A DNA stretch of 64,000 bases from assembly GCF_900100205.1 (NCBI RefSeq), contig NZ_FNEQ01000002.1, forward strand, positions 1-64,000, given 5' to 3'. The notes under the pieces were generated by a model. It was not told the DNA's origin. It saw only the letters and a list, made by a program, of their open reading frames with translations, and did not search any database. Of the stretch, positions 4,669 to 17,094 are shown piece after piece (within the stretch, counting starts at the first letter, position 1; each line of letters begins with the position of its first letter). The DNA comes from Duganella sp. OV510 (lineage in GTDB: Bacteria > Pseudomonadota > Gammaproteobacteria > Burkholderiales > Burkholderiaceae_D). A program made the translations under genes and the position numbers.

Positions 4669-5799
4669 ATGGATATCGATCTGAACAGACAAAGGCAATT
4701 CATGATCCAAGCCTTTGGTTTGCAGCACGTAGACAAGCGGTTTACCTTCTTCTACGACGAGACGAACAACATCCGTAAGTTCTATCTCACTGATGATGGA
4801 ACGAATGTATCCGAGCACAAAAATTTTGTCATCGGTGGAATCGCACTTCGAGAGGGTCAACAGCTTCCCGACATCGATGATCTGCGAACGAAAATGCGGA
4901 TGCAGGAAAACGCCCCTGAAATCAAATTTTCCCATGTTGCAAAGGGGGACTTCGAACAGGTCCTCGCCTCCAAAAAATTAGGCATCGCTCTTTCCTGGCT
5001 CATCGAGCACAACGTCCTCATTCACTACTCCAGTGTAAACATCATTAGCTGGTCGCTTTCCGACATCATTGATTCCGTTCTGATGGAAGATCGATTCCAG
5101 CACTATGGTCCCTATCAGCGAGTGCTGAAAAATGAGCTCTACCGAGTCGTCAGCAGGGATAAGCGGCGCTTCTTAGCATTGATGAAGCACTACGGTTATC
5201 CTGACATACAGCGTGATCAAACGGGCAGCTTCCTAAGCGACATCTGTGCCCTCTTAGATGCACATGGATCAGAAGACGATGACTTGCCCATGCTCGTTCT
5301 TCGGGACATGATGAAGGAGGCGTCAACGCTCTCCGAGCTGGCGGCCCTCACTGGCAATGAGAAAAATGTGCTCATCGCTGACTTCGAGATTTTTTACACT
5401 CGCCCGGTCATGCTATTTCAAAATTCCGTTCACATCTTCGACCACGAGCTACAGATCGAAAAAGGACTCGCCGGCACTCGCTTCAAAAAAGATGATGGCT
5501 TTGTGGACTTTAGCTTCTCTGATTCCAGGCAGCAGTCTGGTATCCAAGTGGCGGATGTGGTCACTGGACTCATAGGAAAGTATCAGAGCTTTGTGGAGGA
5601 GCATTCGCTCCCAGAACTTCTTGAGCGAAAAGCCAACTGGAGTGCGGAGCAGATGGCTAATTTCCAGATGCTCCGCGAGCTGATTGACCGAGCTCACGCC
5701 GAGAGTAACGCTTTGATTTTCCGATCCACGACAGAAGATAGCCAGTGGCGAAATGACACGTTCATGCACGACCTCCCAGCAGCCCACCGTAAGCTCTAA
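4669..5799 (+). CDS. DUF3800 domain-containing protein
   Basis: This 376-residue protein has the DUF3800 architecture. Near the N-terminus is FFYDETNN (D30-E31) followed by FVIGGIAL; near the C-terminus is FSFSDSRQQSGIQVADVV, in which D285 and D296 occupy the positions typical of the family's second acidic motif. DUF3800 proteins are thought to have an RNase H-like fold and occur widely in phages and mobile islands; their activity is not well defined. The start is secure: ATG 4669 is preceded by AAGGAGG at a normal distance. It is the second gene of a pair with 3897-4655. A run of eight T bases right after the stop could contribute to transcription termination. Confidence 0.75.
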   Translation: MDIDLNRQRQFMIQAFGLQHVDKRFTFFYDETNNIRKFYLTDDGTNVSEHKNFVIGGIALREGQQLPDIDDLRTKMRMQENAPEIKFSHVAKGDFEQVLASKKLGIALSWLIEHNVLIHYSSVNIISWSLSDIIDSVLMEDRFQHYGPYQRVLKNELYRVVSRDKRRFLALMKHYGYPDIQRDQTGSFLSDICALLDAHGSEDDDLPMLVLRDMMKEASTLSELAALTGNEKNVLIADFEIFYTRPVMLFQNSVHIFDHELQIEKGLAGTRFKKDDGFVDFSFSDSRQQSGIQVADVVTGLIGKYQSFVEEHSLPELLERKANWSAEQMANFQMLRELIDRAHAESNALIFRSTTEDSQWRNDTFMHDLPAAHRKL

Positions 5800-7561: not shown

Positions 7562-8395
7562 TCACGTGCAGCTTACTCGTCTGAACGATTTCGGCACTTC
7601 CACCTGCCTGAAAATCGATTTTCCATTGTGCTGCTTTACGATGACAGGCGGTGCAACCAGTGCCGAATCTTGTGAAAGTCCAATGAATGCCACGCTGTCT
7701 TTTCCGAGCATCGCCTTCTCGCATCTGAAGTGACCATTGAAGTCCATCGCCAAAGCGATCTGATAGATGTTATTTTTTCTGACTGGCTCGGTCCCCATTT
7801 GGTATTCCACGAAGATAGAAAAAGTGAAGAGTTGAAGGCCGACTGTCAATGCAATCAACACCATCCCCCACCGCGATCTAAACACGCTATAGACGCCATA
7901 CAGAAAACTAGCTGCGCCAACTAGGACAGAGGGCCACAGCGTCCAAGACGCCATGATCATTGCGGCTGTAGCTGTCGTGGCATAGGGGAACGTAGAGGCG
8001 TCTTGACTGAATATTGCATTCACTTCGTCGCCCGCTTGCCCGTGAGCGATGAAGGTCAAGAACGCGATCACCCCCAACCAGAATAGCTGCGTCGATTTGA
8101 AGTCGATAAAATGCTTGGCAAAGACCTTCTCAACAAACGAGACAAATACGTAGAGGCCCAAAAACGTCATCCCGAAGAATAATGCGAGCAGATGGCTTGG
8201 CTGCAAAAGACCAAGACTATCGCTACTCAATGCAAAGAAAAGCAGGCCAAGACTGATGAGAGAGGCCCAGTTCAGAACCGCTGAATAACCATCGGTGTTC
8301 ACAAAAAAATGTCTATACAGTGATGCTCTTGCTCGCCGTGCTCCACGCGATAAAAATACAAATACTCGCCTCTTCTTTCTTCGCAAACTGCTCAT
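7562..8395 (-). CDS. hypothetical multi-pass membrane protein
   Basis: This 277-residue protein begins with a very basic region (MSSLRRKKRRVFVF...RRARASLYR) and then has about five hydrophobic segments: around residues 40-58, 66-85, 100-116, 140-165 and 176-196. The basic N-terminus before the first span suggests the N-terminus is inside. The last 75 residues form a soluble C-terminal domain ending in basic residues. No family is recognised. ATG at 8395 is the start; it is divergent from the gene at 8411 with only 15 bases between the two start codons, so the promoters overlap the opposite genes or the two share a very compact control region. That arrangement suggests it belongs with the 8411-10905 pair, perhaps as a membrane effector or sensor; this is inference. 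Confidence 0.6.
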   Translation of the reverse strand: MSSLRRKKRRVFVFLSRGARRARASLYRHFFVNTDGYSAVLNWASLISLGLLFFALSSDSLGLLQPSHLLALFFGMTFLGLYVFVSFVEKVFAKHFIDFKSTQLFWLGVIAFLTFIAHGQAGDEVNAIFSQDASTFPYATTATAAMIMASWTLWPSVLVGAASFLYGVYSVFRSRWGMVLIALTVGLQLFTFSIFVEYQMGTEPVRKNNIYQIALAMDFNGHFRCEKAMLGKDSVAFIGLSQDSALVAPPVIVKQHNGKSIFRQVEVPKSFRRVSCT

Positions 8396-8410
8396 TTCCT
8401 GCCCCGATAA

Positions 8411-9553
8411 ATGGAAAAGAATAGCATGTCAAATTACGCGACCGAAAAGACCAATATCATGCCTCGTCGGGGAGTTGAGTGTATGCTGAGGGATCATTTA
8501 TCAGAAAGCTTTGAAGTGTCACAAGACAGATTTTTCCCCGATCTTTACAAGAGGTGTCTCAAGTCTGGCCTGCTGAAGCAAGGAGCGGCAGCTATTCAAG
8601 CAGAGGCCGAGAAAATGGGCGTGGCTACATCAGTCGAAGCCGTAAAAATGCTCGCCTTCCTCAACTTAGAGGGATATCGCATCCAACGAGGTGACACTGT
8701 GGCTTTCTTCCCTTGCACGGTCGAAATCAGTGAAGCCAAGAAGAACACGCTGGTCGCTCGCATGAGAAAGAATTTTTTAGAGGTCGACGTTGTGATACCT
8801 CCTTATGTGGGTATGGGATACCTTTCCCGTTACGCGGCCCTCATCGAGAAATCCTCCAGCCGAGAGGAACAGGAGAGCTTGATCGCTGAGATGCTTAAAG
8901 AACTCTACGGCGAGCCGCTTAACTTGGCCGACCTCTGCGTCAGCTACAAACTTAATCCCTGTATCGCTCCGTTCTACGACAATATTGTAGAGGCCATCAA
9001 AGCTCATTTCCTGGGACTTCGAAGAGCGTCAGTGCTCACACTAATACCCTGCATCGAAGGCGTCATCCGCAACCTCGCAGAAAAGGTCGGCCGCAATATC
9101 CGAGACAGAATCGATGCTCCGAGTTTTCTTGACGTGCTGGGCCGAGTGCAAAAGCACTACATCAAGAGCGTAGCACTCCGAGGGATCGCTTGGGTGCCGA
9201 GCGAATTGGAGACCGTCGCTCTCTTCGATCAATTCCATGAGCTCCTCCAGATGGTCGAGAGCATCCGTGTATTTGTAGAGCATGCGATGTATAAGCACAC
9301 CGCCGACTACGACAGGTCAAGCCAACTCAATCGGCATGGCATTGTTCACGGCCTTCTATCCGACTACAACACGGAGACTAATTTTTATCGCCTGATAGTT
9401 TTGCTCAACGGGCTCTCCGTGGCATCCATTGTTGCAGGACACGAGGCAAGCCTCTTTCATCCAGAGCCGACAGACGAAGCTCGCAAGCTTGCTAGCCATT
9501 TCAAGTCGTGCATGTTGTCATCGTCAACCATCACCCCCATCACGAGACTGTGA
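8411..9553 (+). CDS. HEPN-like domain protein (RHGIVH motif)
   Basis: The 380-residue protein is mostly helical. Near its C-terminus is LNRHGIVHGLLSDY, where R308-x4-H313 fits the R-x4-6-H active-site motif of HEPN RNases, and about 95 residues earlier is LIPCIEGVIRNLAEK, a helix with conserved-looking Glu and Arg, as in several HEPN-type families. The N-terminal 130 residues resemble no domain I can name. HEPN proteins commonly act as RNA-cutting toxins in abortive-infection and toxin systems; here that is inferred from the motif. Start choices are ATG 8411 and ATG 8426; neither has a strong ribosome site. The next gene begins eight bases after its stop, and a membrane protein gene diverges 15 bases upstream. 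Confidence 0.62.
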   Translation: MEKNSMSNYATEKTNIMPRRGVECMLRDHLSESFEVSQDRFFPDLYKRCLKSGLLKQGAAAIQAEAEKMGVATSVEAVKMLAFLNLEGYRIQRGDTVAFFPCTVEISEAKKNTLVARMRKNFLEVDVVIPPYVGMGYLSRYAALIEKSSSREEQESLIAEMLKELYGEPLNLADLCVSYKLNPCIAPFYDNIVEAIKAHFLGLRRASVLTLIPCIEGVIRNLAEKVGRNIRDRIDAPSFLDVLGRVQKHYIKSVALRGIAWVPSELETVALFDQFHELLQMVESIRVFVEHAMYKHTADYDRSSQLNRHGIVHGLLSDYNTETNFYRLIVLLNGLSVASIVAGHEASLFHPEPTDEARKLASHFKSCMLSSSTITPITRL

Positions 9554-9561
9554 GCCATCCC

Positions 9562-10905
9562 ATGAATGAATCAGACGAAATAGAGGCCGCACTACGTTGG
9601 TTTTTCGAGATCTGCGACAACCCCTTGGAGCTTGCTGAACGCATTGAAGCAGCACGGTCTTACTATCGGGATCAGACAAATTTCGCAGATGGCCGCTGGG
9701 CTAGCCGTGATCCCTTCGAAGGTTTTGACGATCGTATGGCGGTCATCCTAGCTCAGGCGGTTGGAGACCTAAGAGACATCAGAACACGCGATCTCTACCT
9801 GGCTGCTGAGGCCCTACCCTTTCTAAAAATGATCGGTGCTCACCTTGATCTGCTCCGTCACATCCCTGGGGCCACAGAACGGGCCAGGCGTATGCTCCGA
9901 CCGAGAGAACAACATCCTGATGGCGGAATTTTCGAGCTCGTCGTTGCCTTACGCTATGCCAGAGAGGATGAGCTTCTCGTTGAGTTCATCCCAGAGCAAA
10001 ACCGCCGAATGGCTGACTTTCTGATTCGGCCTGCCGACGATGATCCGCTTGAGGAAGTCATCAAGGAAATACATGTCGAATGCAAGCGGCTACGGCCAAG
10101 CGAATATGAAAAAACTGAGGAGCAGAAGGCTCAGGAGATTCTAAACGGTATAAATAATTTTGTTCACGAAAACAAGATCAGCGTTTGCGTTGACGTTACA
10201 TTCACTTCAGAGCTAAGAGAAGTCCCAGCCGATTATCTGCTCAGAAGGATAGATGCCATTACGAACTCGAAGGTTCTCGTGCCAGGGAGCTACCCATGGA
10301 AAGACGAATTTGGCGAAGGAATTGTCAAAGCTGCTGATACCGCTGCCGTCGAGCGAGATGTTGCTGACACCTTCCTTATCGTCGGCAGCAAGCTTGCACG
10401 CCTGTTGGCTGGTGGTGAGCGGCTGGAAGAACATTTTCATTTGATATGTGGGGGCACTCCTCACGCTGGAGATCCCCGCTTCATTGATCAAATCGAATAT
10501 GGCACAGTCGTGTTCTGGCGATGCCTGGCTGAGGAATCGGTTGATGCACGTGCCCGCTACATTAGAACTAAACTTGCCGATATTGATCGGCAAGTGGAGC
10601 ATGCTCCCTTGGCAATTGCTCACATTGGAATGGATGTTGAGCGAGACACGAAAACCGCCGATCTGAGGCGAGAACGAAACCTCGTCACGGCTTCCAGCTA
10701 CCATCCAGACTCACAACTCATGGAGGTGGATCTTCATTATTTCCTTCCTCGGACATCTGAAGTAACGGGCTGGATTATCGATGAAACGGTAGAACCATGC
10801 AGCCGTGCAAACGGCCCTTTTCTGGATAATCCTCGTGTCCTTGGCGGCACTGAAGATGGAATAATGCATAATGAGCCCGCTTGGAGACAGCCGGCTACTC
10901 GATAG
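9562..10905 (+). CDS. putative PD-(D/E)XK nuclease-fold protein
   Basis: The protein has 447 residues from ATG 9562; an in-frame opening from 9508 overlaps the upstream gene and is less likely. Residues 120-180 show a PD-(D/E)XK-like layout: GIFELVVALRYA (Glu125 in a helix), then RRMADFLIR (Asp152), then a strand with HVECKRL (Glu173-x-Lys175). This is the arrangement of restriction-enzyme-like DNA endonucleases. A helical N-terminal region (1-115) and a long C-terminal part (200-447) are unrecognised. It is the second gene of a tight pair with the HEPN-like gene. A perfect terminator follows 125 bases after the stop. Nuclease activity is inferred from the motif alone. Confidence 0.62.
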   Translation: MNESDEIEAALRWFFEICDNPLELAERIEAARSYYRDQTNFADGRWASRDPFEGFDDRMAVILAQAVGDLRDIRTRDLYLAAEALPFLKMIGAHLDLLRHIPGATERARRMLRPREQHPDGGIFELVVALRYAREDELLVEFIPEQNRRMADFLIRPADDDPLEEVIKEIHVECKRLRPSEYEKTEEQKAQEILNGINNFVHENKISVCVDVTFTSELREVPADYLLRRIDAITNSKVLVPGSYPWKDEFGEGIVKAADTAAVERDVADTFLIVGSKLARLLAGGERLEEHFHLICGGTPHAGDPRFIDQIEYGTVVFWRCLAEESVDARARYIRTKLADIDRQVEHAPLAIAHIGMDVERDTKTADLRRERNLVTASSYHPDSQLMEVDLHYFLPRTSEVTGWIIDETVEPCSRANGPFLDNPRVLGGTEDGIMHNEPAWRQPATR

Positions 10906-12563: not shown

Positions 12564-14111
12564 TTAGACGGCCACTGTGCTGGATGCTGTAGTCTTCTTA
12601 GGCCGTCCCGTGCGAGGCTTCTGTGGTTTGCACACATGCGGTTCTGGGGCCGCGATCGGCGGCCAATGGGTAGGCTTCAAGGCGTTATAGACGTTGGGGG
12701 CAGTGAGAAGAATCGCTTGCTCGATTTTTGTCATCCAGCTTCTGAGCTCGTCCCACTCTGCTTCGGTGTAGCGATCAGAGACAGTTGCATGAGCGTGGTT
12801 GAAGAAAGTGCCCTTAATCACTTCGGGGACCTGCAAGGAGGTCATCAAAGCTCCGAAGGTTCGACGCAAATCGTGATTCGTCAATCGCTCGATGCCCGCC
12901 TCTTCCATAATCGCATGTCGGAGTTCATCGGGATTGATGTAGTGCCCCGTCTTCGAGAACTTATTTCGAGCTGGGAATACGTAAGACCTAGAATGCGAAG
13001 CAAACCCTCGCTTCAAAGCCTCGTCTTTCGCTGCCGTTTGCCTCAGCCGCAGCAAGCCCACTGACATGGGACCAATCGGCAAACGATGATTCTTTCCTCC
13101 CTTGGTGCCATAAAAGAAAACGTGATCTCCGTATTCATCATCGCCAAAAGCGACATGACTCGTTACCTTCTTCTGGTCGGCATCAAGCAACTCGCCCCAC
13201 TGGCATTGAGCATGTTCGGACTTACGACAGCCCCAAAGCAGCATCGCGATAAGGAAGTGAACTCCAGTCAGATTATCGTTCGTCTGCCCTTTGCTCCACG
13301 CCGCCTCAAGGAACGGTCCGAGCGTCTTCTTCGGCGAGAGCGGATTACGCTTCTTCCCTTCTTTGTAGATGGTCTCCTTCTGCTGCATCGTCGGATACAT
13401 TTTGTCGATCACTAGGATCGTGAACGGATTCGCTTTCAGCATCGGAGAGCGATTCGCTGCGGCGGCGTTAAGAGCCTCAGTGCCCATGTGCCAGGCGATA
13501 GCGGCAGAAGCCCAGCGAAATGCTTGTTCATTGGCGACGGGATAAATGTCACGACCCACCAAAAATTTTGCTTTCACTTCTTCTGCGGTAATTTCTTTGA
13601 CCTTGCGAGTCAGCCAGCCCCAAGGCTTGAACTTGTTGATGGCCCGGTCAATTACGCGAACGGTTTCGGCGGATGCTGGTTTTACTGTGCGAGTTCGCAT
13701 GTGCTCACGATAAGCCTTAAAGACCGCCTCTAGCGTCACTTCCGCAGCGACAGCCTTACGAGCCGACTCGTTAGGATTCTGCCCCGTCTCAACCATTTCA
13801 AGAGCCATTGCAGCCGCTTTGCTACGAGCAAGAGTTAGCGGAGCCTTGCCCCCATCAGCCATGAAGTCAGCCACATTGCCGACAGTGGGCATAATGGATT
13901 TGCCGTGAATCTTTCGGCGAATGATGAAGGTCTTCTTTCGAGCGATCTTGACCCCAAAGCCAGGAGGAGCCTCTTGGTTGGCGTCATACACGATGTAATC
14001 TTTCTTGCTGGGATTGGCCGCAAAAACCAGATTACCATGAGCGTCCACACCGGTCGGCCGCTGATCCAAAGTTAGCCGCTTAATCAAAGGCATTGTCAAT
14101 TCGACCTTCAT
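12564..14111 (-). CDS. tyrosine recombinase (integrase) of the island
   Basis: The 515-residue integrase catalyses site-specific insertion and excision of the element. The catalytic set is complete: R296 (LLWGCRKSEH), K337 (GTKGGKNHRLPI), H413-x2-R416 (TNHDLRRTF), a further His in FNHAHATVSDRY and the nucleophile Y448. Residues 1-110 resemble the arm-binding region of P4-type integrases, and 125-245 form the core-binding domain. The C-terminus carries a proline/lysine-rich tail after the catalytic domain. ATG 14111 has AAGGAG six bases upstream. It is the last island gene and is divergent from mutS, 337 bases away. Confidence 0.93.
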   Translation of the reverse strand: MKVELTMPLIKRLTLDQRPTGVDAHGNLVFAANPSKKDYIVYDANQEAPPGFGVKIARKKTFIIRRKIHGKSIMPTVGNVADFMADGGKAPLTLARSKAAAMALEMVETGQNPNESARKAVAAEVTLEAVFKAYREHMRTRTVKPASAETVRVIDRAINKFKPWGWLTRKVKEITAEEVKAKFLVGRDIYPVANEQAFRWASAAIAWHMGTEALNAAAANRSPMLKANPFTILVIDKMYPTMQQKETIYKEGKKRNPLSPKKTLGPFLEAAWSKGQTNDNLTGVHFLIAMLLWGCRKSEHAQCQWGELLDADQKKVTSHVAFGDDEYGDHVFFYGTKGGKNHRLPIGPMSVGLLRLRQTAAKDEALKRGFASHSRSYVFPARNKFSKTGHYINPDELRHAIMEEAGIERLTNHDLRRTFGALMTSLQVPEVIKGTFFNHAHATVSDRYTEAEWDELRSWMTKIEQAILLTAPNVYNALKPTHWPPIAAPEPHVCKPQKPRTGRPKKTTASSTVAV

Positions 14112-14448
14112 CCCATCTCCTTAGAAGAATTGAAGCAGGCAAGAGAGTCCATGGGGGACTGCGTCTCAACTTTAACGTATAATCCGTCCTCCCCTTACAG
14201 CCCCCTAATGGGGACTGTAAAAATCAATGAAACTCATTGATTTTTAAAGATTTTTCTAAGGATAAATCAAAAAAATGGACTGGAAATTATTATAGCCTGA
14301 ACTTGCTTTCTACAGTTCCCTTTTAGCCCCCTTTTTCGGGGCAGAACTTTAGGGCAAACAGGGGTGACTCAGTGGCAAACCAAGGAATGACCAACGTGCT
14401 TAAATCATTGATTAAAAAAGAGAAATCAGAAAAATGCGAGATATCACA
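14112..14448. other. AT-rich integrase-mutS intergenic region, probable attachment-site end of the island
   Basis: No gene is supported here. The AT-rich composition of the island continues up to about 14,430 and changes abruptly at the first mutS codons, so the attachment junction is expected in or near this stretch. It holds two adjacent hairpins (14195-14220 and 14218-14246), a TATAAT at 14178-14183 without a convincing -35 box, and repeated AGCCCCCT-type runs near 14200 and 14325. No tRNA or tmRNA gene is present as the target. The core att sequence cannot be fixed without the left end. Confidence 0.5.
14195..14246. repeat. two back-to-back hairpins upstream of the integrase
   Basis: The first pairs TTACAGCCCC (14195-14204) with GGGGACTGTAA (14210-14220) with a one-base bulge. 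The second is a perfect 13-bp stem (14218-14230 with 14234-14246, built on AAAAATCAATGA) with a three-base loop AAC and a T-rich right arm. They lie between the integrase and mutS start codons. They may be integrase arm-type or core binding sites, or a transcription barrier between the island and mutS. Confidence 0.5.
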
Positions 14449-17094
14449 ATGAGCACGAAACCGGTCGAAAAACTGACCCCGATGATGCAGCAATATATGG
14501 GCATCAAGAACCAGCATCCGGACATGCTGGTGTTCTACCGTATGGGCGATTTCTACGAGCTGTTTCATGAAGACGCGGAAAAGGCTGCGCGCATCCTCGG
14601 CATTACGCTGACCGCGCGCGGTTCGTCGGGCGGCCAGCCGATCAAGATGTGCGGTGTGCCGTTCCATTCGCTGGAAGGCTATCTGGCCAAGCTGGTCAAG
14701 ATCGGCGAATCCTGCGCCATCTGCGAACAGATCGGCGATCCGGCCACCAGCAAAGGCCCGGTCGAGCGCAAGGTGATGCGGGTGGTCACGCCAGGCACGC
14801 TGACCGATGCCGACCTGCTGCCGGAAAAATCGGAACGTCCGCTGCTGTCGCTATGCGTCATCAGCCAGCGCAAGGTGGCGACCGCCGGCCTGGCGTGGCT
14901 GTCGCTGGCCAGCGGCGCGTTGCGCCTGATGGAGTTCTCGGGCGACAGCCACACCGTTAATACGCGCATCCAGCAGGAGCTGGAACGCATCTCGCCAGCC
15001 GAGATGCTGCGCGGCGATAACGGCGAGCTGTTTGAGGAATACACGGCCTGCCACGTCAACCGCGTGCCGGAGTGGCACTTTGACGTGGTCAGCGGCCACA
15101 AGGCGCTGCTGGACCAGCTGGCCGTGTCGACGCTGACCGGTTTCGGCGCCGATGGCCTCGGCGCGGCCTTTGGCGCGGCCGGCGCGCTGCTGCGCTACGC
15201 GCAATCCACGCAAGGGCGCGGTCTGCAACACGTGCGCACGCTGACCACCGAAACCGAAAATGAATTCATCGGCCTGGACGCCGCCACCCGCCGCAACCTG
15301 GAACTGACCGAAACCATTCGCGGCCAGGAATCGCCGACGCTGTTCTCGCTGCTGGACCACTGCCGCACCGCCATGGGTTCGCGCCTGCTGCGCCACTGGC
15401 TGCACCACGCGCGCCGCGACCAGAACGTGGCCCGCTCGCGCCACCAGGCCATCGCCGCGCTGACGCAGGCCGACGCCACCGGCTCGCTGTCGCACACGCT
15501 GGCGCAGGTGCCGGACATCGAACGCATCACCACCCGTATCGCGCTGCTGTCGGCGCGTCCGCGCGACCTCGCCAGCCTGCGCGACGGTCTGGCGCAACTG
15601 CCGGCGCTGCGCCACGGCATGCAGCGCACGCTGACCGACGCCAACGGCCTGCTGGCCAACATCCACGCCGACCTGGCCACGCCGGCAGCCTGCCTCGACC
15701 TGCTGCAACGCGCCGTCATGCCGGAACCGGCGGTGATGGTGCGCGACGGTGGCGTCATCGCACGCGGCTTCGACGCAGAACTGGATGAACTGCGCGGCCT
15801 GTCGGAAAACGCCGGCCAGTATCTGGTCGACCTGGAGACGCGCGAACGCGCCCGCACCGGCATCGCCAACCTGCGCGTCGAGTACAACAAGGTGCATGGC
15901 TTCTATATCGAAGTCACCAATGGCCAGGCCACCAAGGTGCCGGACGATTACCGCCGCCGCCAGACGCTGAAGAACTGCGAGCGCTACATCACGCCGGAAC
16001 TGAAAGCCTTCGAGGATAAGGCGCTGTCGGCACAGGACCGCGCACTGGCGCGCGAGAAGATGCTGTACGACCAGCTGCTGGGCGACCTGGCGCCATTCAT
16101 CGGCACATTGCAAACCATCGCCCGCGCACTGGCGCAGCTGGATACGCTGACTGCGCTTGCCGACCACGCACTGCGCCACAGCTGGTGCGCGCCGGAGCTG
16201 GTGGCAACGCCATGCATCAACATCAGGGAAGGCCGCCACCCGGTGGTCGAGAACCAGATCGAACGCTTCATCGCCAACGATTGCCGCTTTGTCGACGAAC
16301 GCCGCCTGCTGCTGATTACCGGTCCTAACATGGGCGGTAAATCGACCTTCATGCGCCAGGTGGCGCTGATTACGCTGCTGGCCTACATGGGCAGCTACGT
16401 GCCGGCGCAAAGCGCCGTCATCGGCCCGATCGACCGCATCTTCACCCGCATCGGCGCCACCGACGACCTGGCCGGCGGCCGCTCGACCTTCATGGTGGAG
16501 ATGACCGAAGCCGCCGCCATCCTCAACGGCGCCACCGAACACTCGCTGGTGCTGATGGACGAAATCGGCCGCGGCACCTCGACCTTCGACGGCCTGGCGC
16601 TGGCCTGGGCCATCGCCCGCCACCTGATCGAGACCAGCCGCAGCTTCTCGCTGTTCGCCACCCATTACTTCGAGCTGACGCAACTGCCGGACAGCCACCC
16701 GACTGCTTCCAACGTCCACCTGTCGGCGGTGGAGCACAAGGACACCATCGTGTTCCTGCACGCGGTGCAGGATGGCCCGGCCTCGCAGAGCTACGGCTTG
16801 CAGGTGGCACAGTTGGCCGGCGTGCCGCAGCCGGTCATCAAGGCCGCGCGCAAGCACCTGGCGCGCCTGGAAGCGCAGGCGCTGGACGCCACGCCGCAGC
16901 TGGACCTGTTTGCCGCGCCGTCGGTCGACGCCAACGATGAGGAAGTCGAAGCGCCAGCGGCAAGCGCCGCCAGCCCTGCCATGCGTGAACTGCTGGATGC
17001 GCTGGACGATCTCGATCCGGACGCACTGACGCCGCGTGAAGCGCTGGACCGTCTGTATCAGCTGAAGCGCCTGACGGAGTCGGCGCAGGCATGA
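14449..17094 (+). CDS. mutS: DNA mismatch repair protein MutS
   Basis: MutS recognises base mismatches and recruits MutL. The 881-residue protein is full length: the mismatch-reading Phe-x-Glu motif is GDFYELF (F35, E37), the Walker A is GPNMGGKST (about 625-633), followed by [14 protein letters not shown] (Walker B and signature) and LFATHYFEL. The start is taken at ATG 14449 ([16 protein letters not shown]), matching the usual MutS N-terminus; ATG 14434 would add five residues. Neither has a good Shine-Dalgarno, and the upstream DNA is island-like, so the native leader may have been replaced. The stop overlaps the next gene by four bases. Confidence 0.97.

Follow-up and report, generated by a model that had tools for sequence, protein, structure and literature searches.

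A candidate defence cassette of HEPN-like and PD-(D/E)XK-like proteins on an integrative element at mutS in Duganella sp. OV510

Do two adjoining genes of Duganella sp. OV510, one encoding a HEPN-like protein (P1) and the other a PD-(D/E)XK-like protein (P2), act together in defence, and does the membrane protein gene (M) that diverges from them belong to the same system? They lie in the window analysed here, the 64,000 nucleotides at the start of a 620-kb contig (NZ_FNEQ01000002.1), where an initial annotation had proposed a two-gene defence module inside an integrative element. We consider it marginally probable, a little better than even, that P1 and P2 are co-transcribed active nucleases, a HEPN ribonuclease (RNase) and a PD-(D/E)XK deoxyribonuclease (DNase), which travel with M as a defence cassette on the element at mutS. 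Such a cassette would most likely be a composite of two known effector superfamilies, its defence role and the cooperation of its parts being predicted from sequence.

Catalytic residues and predicted folds of P2 and P1

P2 is composed of a helical N-terminal part, the core listed in Table 1 and a C-terminal alpha/beta domain (290-415). It carries the proposed residues E125, D152 and E173-C-K175, and these are strongly conserved: E125, E173 and K175 stand in 80 of 80 aligned rows and D152 in 78, with Glu in the other two, which amounts to a conserved Glu/Asp...(D/E)-x-K catalytic set (the short sequences P0036, P0056 and P0068-P0072 and genome matches below 70 bits were excluded). PD-(D/E)XK nucleases share an alpha-beta-beta-beta-alpha-beta core with the catalytic residues in fixed elements. 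The predicted P2 model has this order of helices (H) and strands (E), namely H119-133, E138-142, E153-157, E170-176, H181-195 and E208-214, and appears to place the residues in the right elements; the predicted local distance difference test (pLDDT) scores of its core blocks are 87-98, except for 67 at 161-170. P2 is classed here as PD-(D/E)XK-like and as a predicted nuclease.

For P1, the probable start is the ATG at 8483 rather than the opening of the reading frame at 8411, because GGGGAG lies 8 bases upstream, the protein-database copy P0001 has 356 amino acids, and the first 24 residues of the longer frame occur in none of the 14 homologues of alignment A1. In the numbering from 8411, an N-terminal alpha/beta part is followed by a helical part with E216-x3-R220 and N307-R308-H309-x3-H313. 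The RHGIVH motif (R308-H309-G-I-V-H313) noted earlier is thus present, as one of three R-x4-H matches in P1; shuffled versions hold 0.67 on average and one or more in 51% of cases. The motif alone is therefore chance-level, but its conservation is not. N307, R308, H309, H313 and E216 are invariant in all 24 aligned rows, down to about 20% identity, and position 220 is R or K in 21 rows and N, D and S once each. These rows comprise 15 from A1 and nine fetched ones; P0001, P0009 and weak genome matches below 50 bits were excluded, as were, from the P1 and P2 counts, the weak genome matches L020-L024 and L051-L053 and the fragments L048 and L049. Redundancy among the P1 and P2 rows includes at least two repeats of aligned proteins (L007 equals P0011 and L001 equals the window), besides near-identical sequences within L026/L027 and within L028-L030.

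HEPN proteins are defined by Rx4-6H, a polar residue (N, D or H) immediately following the Arg and, in many cases, Ex3[KR] farther upstream (PMC3710099). All three occur in P1, as R308 with H313, as H309, and as E216 with R or K at 220. In the predicted P1 model (pLDDT 80, below 50 at residues 299-311) a long helix precedes the motif, and residues 174-357 match Csm6 (4.6), TT1696 (4.3), HepS (3.5), E. italicus Csm6 (3.3) and AbiV (2.9). No Pfam HEPN model was matched by 15 members of the P1 family up to E 1, the best Pfam match being T9SS_plug_1st (E 0.0027, three members), which we judged to be chance, and the window protein matched no HEPN model in NCBIfam or PADLOC. HEPN families are described as very diverged in the same source (PMC3710099), and a missing model match therefore does not exclude a HEPN identity of P1, which we class as HEPN-like and as a predicted RNase. 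In UniRef, the relative P0007 is named 'Apea-like HEPN'.

As for the remark that neither protein matches a named system, P1 and P2 had no match at E 0.001 in Pfam, NCBIfam (window proteins only) or PADLOC. In PADLOC-DB 2.0.0, the window's P1, P2 and M stayed unmatched up to E 1 and seven P2 relatives up to E 0.1, and three P1 relatives gave one weak match, 'Unk_05' (E 0.0096). The label 'Transposase' on P2 relatives in Rhizobiaceae plasmids is the annotators' own and is set aside here. Structure prediction, suggested as a check, gave a confident P2 model with the expected core order. Foldseek returned no match at E <= 0.001 for the P1 and P2 models against the PDB or for P2 against BFVD. Sequence profiles searched against PDB chains yielded nothing for A1 and two ribosomal S16 matches only for A2 (E 0.5-0.6).

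Several P1-like genes elsewhere have features of their own. A longer subfamily of about 440-500 amino acids (L055 4539-5966, L032, L034 and L050) has the same NRH-x3-H and a C-terminal extension, and the L032 member is closely followed by a gene that begins with HHFVPKAYLRAF and looks DUF4238-like on visual inspection. At L031 (10251-11012), in a genome without P2, a 253-amino-acid gene with a PDF...GVELTE stretch overlaps the start of a P1 relative; it might be an alternative PD-(D/E)XK-like partner, for which we make no claim, as it matches phrog_35865 (unknown function), no PADLOC model and Pfam at chance level only, and the canonical Lys is absent. Hydrophobic proteins directly 5' of the P1-like genes at L033 and L054 gave no match to the M profile.

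Gene layout, linkage and the element at mutS

The two frames, 8411-9553 and P2, are separated by 8 bases on the forward strand, as the initial annotation had it. P1 and P2 probably share one transcript, because a terminator-like stem stands after P2; such patterns are barely above expectation in the region (5 found against 3.6 in shuffles). The divergent membrane gene is likewise where it was reported, but the 15-base gap given for it becomes 87 bases with the P1 start chosen at 8483, and a pattern scan found no promoter-like match within 8396..8482. In M, one loop (AHGQAGDEVNAIF-DAS-FPYA) is very conserved, and two cysteines of the C-terminal tail stand in all 18 rows of its alignment.

Linkage of the three genes was followed through their listed protein-database relatives, 16 for P1 (one being the window's own), 56 for P2 (7998 candidates sharing most words were scored) and 17 for M. 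Shared contigs were judged by equal source-contig sizes and in one case also by consecutive locus tags, in a database that shows the longest contig per 90% cluster. P1 and P2 occur together on three further contigs (26886, 21824 and 18734 bases), M and P1 on four (26886, 21824, 4977 and 2620 bases) and M and P2 on four (26886, 21824, 23434 and 21222 bases), so that M accompanies P1 or P2 on six contigs, and all three genes share two besides the window; coincidences with jittered lengths average 0.05 (P1-P2), 0.02 (M-P1) and 0.05 (M-P2). Because only the longest contig per cluster is shown, P1 may also be present, unseen, on the contigs of 23434 and 21222 bases. In Duganella sp. FT94W the three genes bear the consecutive tags GTP38_24380, 24375 and 24370. 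Since M, P1 and P2 thus share contigs above chance, M is likely a third part, as had been suspected. Identities to the window are discordant, with 58% (M), 89% (P1) and 93% (P2) in FT94W and 82%, 67% and 81% on the 21824-base contig, and M therefore reassorts.

P1 relatives were found in at least 5 of the 392 genomes sampled from the family, 3 of the 74 from the genus and 4 of the 369 from the class and, among the candidates scored, in none of 40 from the genus of the same-family genome G005. P2 relatives occur in at least 13 of 392, 5 of 74 and 2 of 369 genomes, respectively, and M relatives in at least 7 of 279. Several of these matches are weak, and the counts are lower bounds, as part of the first-look candidates was scored in many genomes. 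The window genome, counted in all the P1 and P2 samples except that of 40 genomes, is the only sampled genome with both P1 and P2. In the family sample, M relatives that lack P1 and P2 occur in four genera.

P1 and P2 lie, as had been claimed, within an integrative element, which sits in the 5' end of mutS and has its own integrase and a 26-bp direct repeat (Table 1). In all six chosen same-genus relatives, homology with the tested stretch 14301-16433 starts at 14461-14467, and mutS begins at about 14.45 kb of the window. The stretch before mutS in one relative (L080 1364-1499) matches contig C16 of the window's own genome at 1515895-1516032 (83%), and the repeat is common to that place and to the first mutS codons of the window. 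Because C16 (length 1522554) continues for about 6.5 kb past the repeat, the element, with an assembly gap not counted, measures at least 21 kb. The profile of GC content, which covers the window to 25 kb, shows 45-53% in the first 15 kb and 59-70% beyond. mutS would start inside the element, which (window 14434-14495, C16 about 1516037) would supply a new mutS start, and integration could affect the expression of mismatch repair.

The element also carries a candidate defence gene, PDC-S51/DUF3800 (4669-5799, PADLOC E 2.2e-119). DUF3800-type genes recur near other P1 or P2 loci: that at L003 (6749-7945) is 40% identical to the window's, and that at L031 (12535-13692) was recognised by eye only and is unmatched in PADLOC.

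Table 1. Positions of the three genes and of associated features of the element (window coordinates unless stated).
Feature	Position	Strand	Remarks
P1, HEPN-like protein	8483..9553	+	356 aa (amino acids) from ATG at 8483; open reading frame opens at 8411
P2, PD-(D/E)XK-like predicted nuclease	9562..10905	+	447 aa; core residues 119-214
M, divergent membrane protein	7562..8395	-	277 aa; at least 3 hydrophobic spans
Divergent region, M to probable P1 start	8396..8482	.	87 bases
Terminator-like 12-pair stem and T run, 3' of P2	11030..11057	+	pattern match only; would terminate a P1-P2 transcript
Tyrosine integrase of the element	12564..14111	-	
C-terminal part of TraA-type relaxase/helicase, element cargo, near contig start	126..1331	+	E 9e-51, under the model's curated cut-off
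Right attachment repeat	14470..14495	.	26 bp, in 5' codons of mutS
Left repeat copy	contig C16 (window's own genome), near 1516037-1516062		26 bp

P2 relatives beside other defence genes

The surroundings of P2 relatives were read at 26 loci besides the window, a set that left aside the plasmid matches H2, H8-H10, H18, H19 and three more (H23 and H25 for P1) and the genome matches L020-L024, L048, L049 and L051-L053. Neighbours were scanned with PADLOC at 12 of the 26, picked by the author for their defence-like look and not blind, and all 12 have a match at E <= 0.001 beside P2, weak or generic at L035 and L036. At six loci the P2 relative lies 0-70 bases behind the preceding same-strand gene or overlaps it: it directly follows Hp1-Hp2-Hp3 (E 1.8e-62, 9.6e-48 and 9e-6) at L002, a split IetS gene (first part E 7.7e-68) at L042, an AbiJ-type gene (E 6.6e-14) at L044, a SIR2-like gene (E 2e-4, weak) at L035, an SMC-like gene (best LmuB, E 3.2e-19, generic) at L036, and a DGQHR/DpdB-like gene near dndB and dndC at L063. 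Farther off, it stands 162 bases behind GajA-GajB (L040) and 222 bases behind a PDC-M62A/B pair (L039), and it is divergent to a TIR-type short-Argonaute partner at L058; other defence-like neighbours are a type IIG enzyme (L041), a Ppl-like gene (L062) and an RmrA-like gene (L003). DGQHR-domain genes recur near P2 relatives, at the Dnd/Dpd-like locus L063 and at L078 and L079, the E. coli tRNA-Arg element included.

P2 relatives also occur singly. Of 5426 E. coli genomes, three contain the relative from L028, which in the two regions read stands alone behind an integrase at tRNA-Arg; the relative from L047 matched four of these 5426 genomes at two places each, none covering 80%. On several plasmids P2 has no recognisable partner. 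Among plasmid records, 23 have a P2 match and six a P1 match, and none matches M or the DNA of the region. Viral contigs contain five P2 relatives and none confirmed for P1 or M, and no phage record matched P2.

Weighing the explanations and comparison with known systems

Several observations weigh against a coupled cassette. P2 accompanies three of seven P1 relatives on contigs of at least 11 kb (window excluded), and the fetched loci, some of them short stretches (e.g., L050 with 3.8 kb), contain P1 or M in 0 of 26 P2 cases, P2 or M in 0 of nine P1-like cases and P1 or P2 in 0 of six M-like cases. The P1-P2 pair is thus not obligatory, and the co-occurrence search proposed at the outset gave three further shared contigs but no shared locus among these 26 and nine. 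G-protein-coupled receptors (up to 4.3) and lyases (2.9) match the P1 model about as well as HEPN proteins do, so that the fold evidence for HEPN in P1, taken alone, is weak, and the P2 model scores better structurally against acetyl-CoA carboxylase than against nucleases. An argument from fold alone is further weakened by a survey that reports protection by one of 24 low-score remote homologues, six of which were PD-(D/E)XK proteins (PMC13092281). Of the proposed two-gene module there stand the motifs, the core order of P2, weak HEPN-type matches, the mobile setting and the defence neighbours, but not the obligatory pairing.

The absence of joint occurrence in the fetched loci weakens the cassette explanation and strengthens its most serious competitor, in which a defence island happens to have two or three independent single-gene defence systems lined up in a single transcription unit, P2 as a free-standing nuclease and P1 as a free-standing abortive-infection RNase, with no coupling. 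This we regard as a real possibility, though clearly short of even, and P2 does stand solo or in unrelated operons elsewhere; the 8-base gap between P1 and P2 and the recurrence of the set, with diverged sequences, on other contigs of close relatives argue against mere stacking.

A bolder idea, which we hold to be rather unlikely, takes P2 as the founder of an undescribed portable PD-(D/E)XK family, whose members form the final gene in a wide range of unrelated defence systems (3HP, Gabija, IetAS, AbiJ-type, Dnd/Dpd, SIR2-like, SMC-like, and HEPN with a membrane protein), serve as a shared accessory or back-up nuclease and also work alone; the window cassette would be its HEPN-coupled, membrane-gated form. 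A nuclease shared in this way as an add-on would be relevant to the open question of how effectors pass from one defence system to another.

Very improbable, in our judgement, is a toxin-antitoxin-like pair with P1 as a HEPN toxin restrained by P2 or M. P1 adjoins P2, and two-gene modules such as HEPN/MNT (minimal nucleotidyltransferase) contain HEPN toxins (PMC7641770), but the catalytic set of P2 is complete in 78 of 80 rows and differs in the other two by Glu in place of Asp, neither P2 nor M matches a nucleotidyltransferase model, and P1 relatives exist without P2. Least probable of all is a role in element maintenance or conjugation instead of phage defence, for instance in keeping out related elements or in processing the element's DNA. 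The integrase, the TraA-type relaxase fragment and the 19 of 23 P2-matching plasmid records typed as conjugative speak for such a role; against it, P2 relatives also lie on chromosomes directly behind an annotated integrase, and behind the last gene of defence operons.

Within the favoured cassette of two nucleases and a membrane protein, P1 and P2 are more likely complementary, semi-independent arms than subunits of one obligatory enzyme. P2 would respond to a cue of its own and cut the DNA of phages or plasmids, because it stands alone in many genomes, and its C-terminal alpha/beta domain may be a sensing or DNA-binding part. P1 could cut RNA as a second, growth-stopping line, and M, at the envelope, might tune or trigger the response. 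Both superfamilies are already known as effector kinds: one survey gives PD-(D/E)XK in 13 and HEPN in 4 of 31 validated defence systems (PMC13092281), and a published screen gives HEPN similarity in 6 of 21 (PMC9519451). The literature searched contained no HEPN, PD-(D/E)XK and membrane cassette of this kind, which is no proof of absence, as most subscription papers lay outside the search. If the explanation is true, one small cassette would join an RNase arm, a DNase arm and a membrane component, and a DNase family unnamed in Pfam, NCBIfam and PADLOC would recur beside many kinds of defence genes. The cassette is also compact enough to be tested by experiment and offers well-defined residues as targets for mutation.

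With the HEPN RNases Csm6, HepS and AbiV, P1 shares N-R-H-x3-H, including the polar residue after the Arg, the upstream Ex3[KR] and a helical C-terminal part, but it has its own N-terminal alpha/beta part, and a nucleotidyltransferase partner is not seen. P2 resembles the restriction enzymes BstEII, HindIII and HinP1I, structural matches that score below acetyl-CoA carboxylase, in core order and in the placement of Glu, Asp and Glu-x-Lys; it differs by its second alpha/beta domain and its helical N-terminal part, and no methyltransferase was recognised among its scanned window neighbours. Sequence similarity links residues 79-224 of P2 (E 5.6e-11), and likewise a viral-contig relative (E 3.4e-15), to phrog_37220, a family of unknown function, so that no mechanism follows. 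To our knowledge, 3HP, IetAS, AbiJ-type, Dnd/Dpd-type, SIR2-like and SMC/LmuB-like systems are known without a P2-type gene. In the operons of these kinds read here, the P2 relative is the last gene, as P2 is behind P1, whereas in the window P2 has the HEPN-like P1 and the divergent M as its partners.
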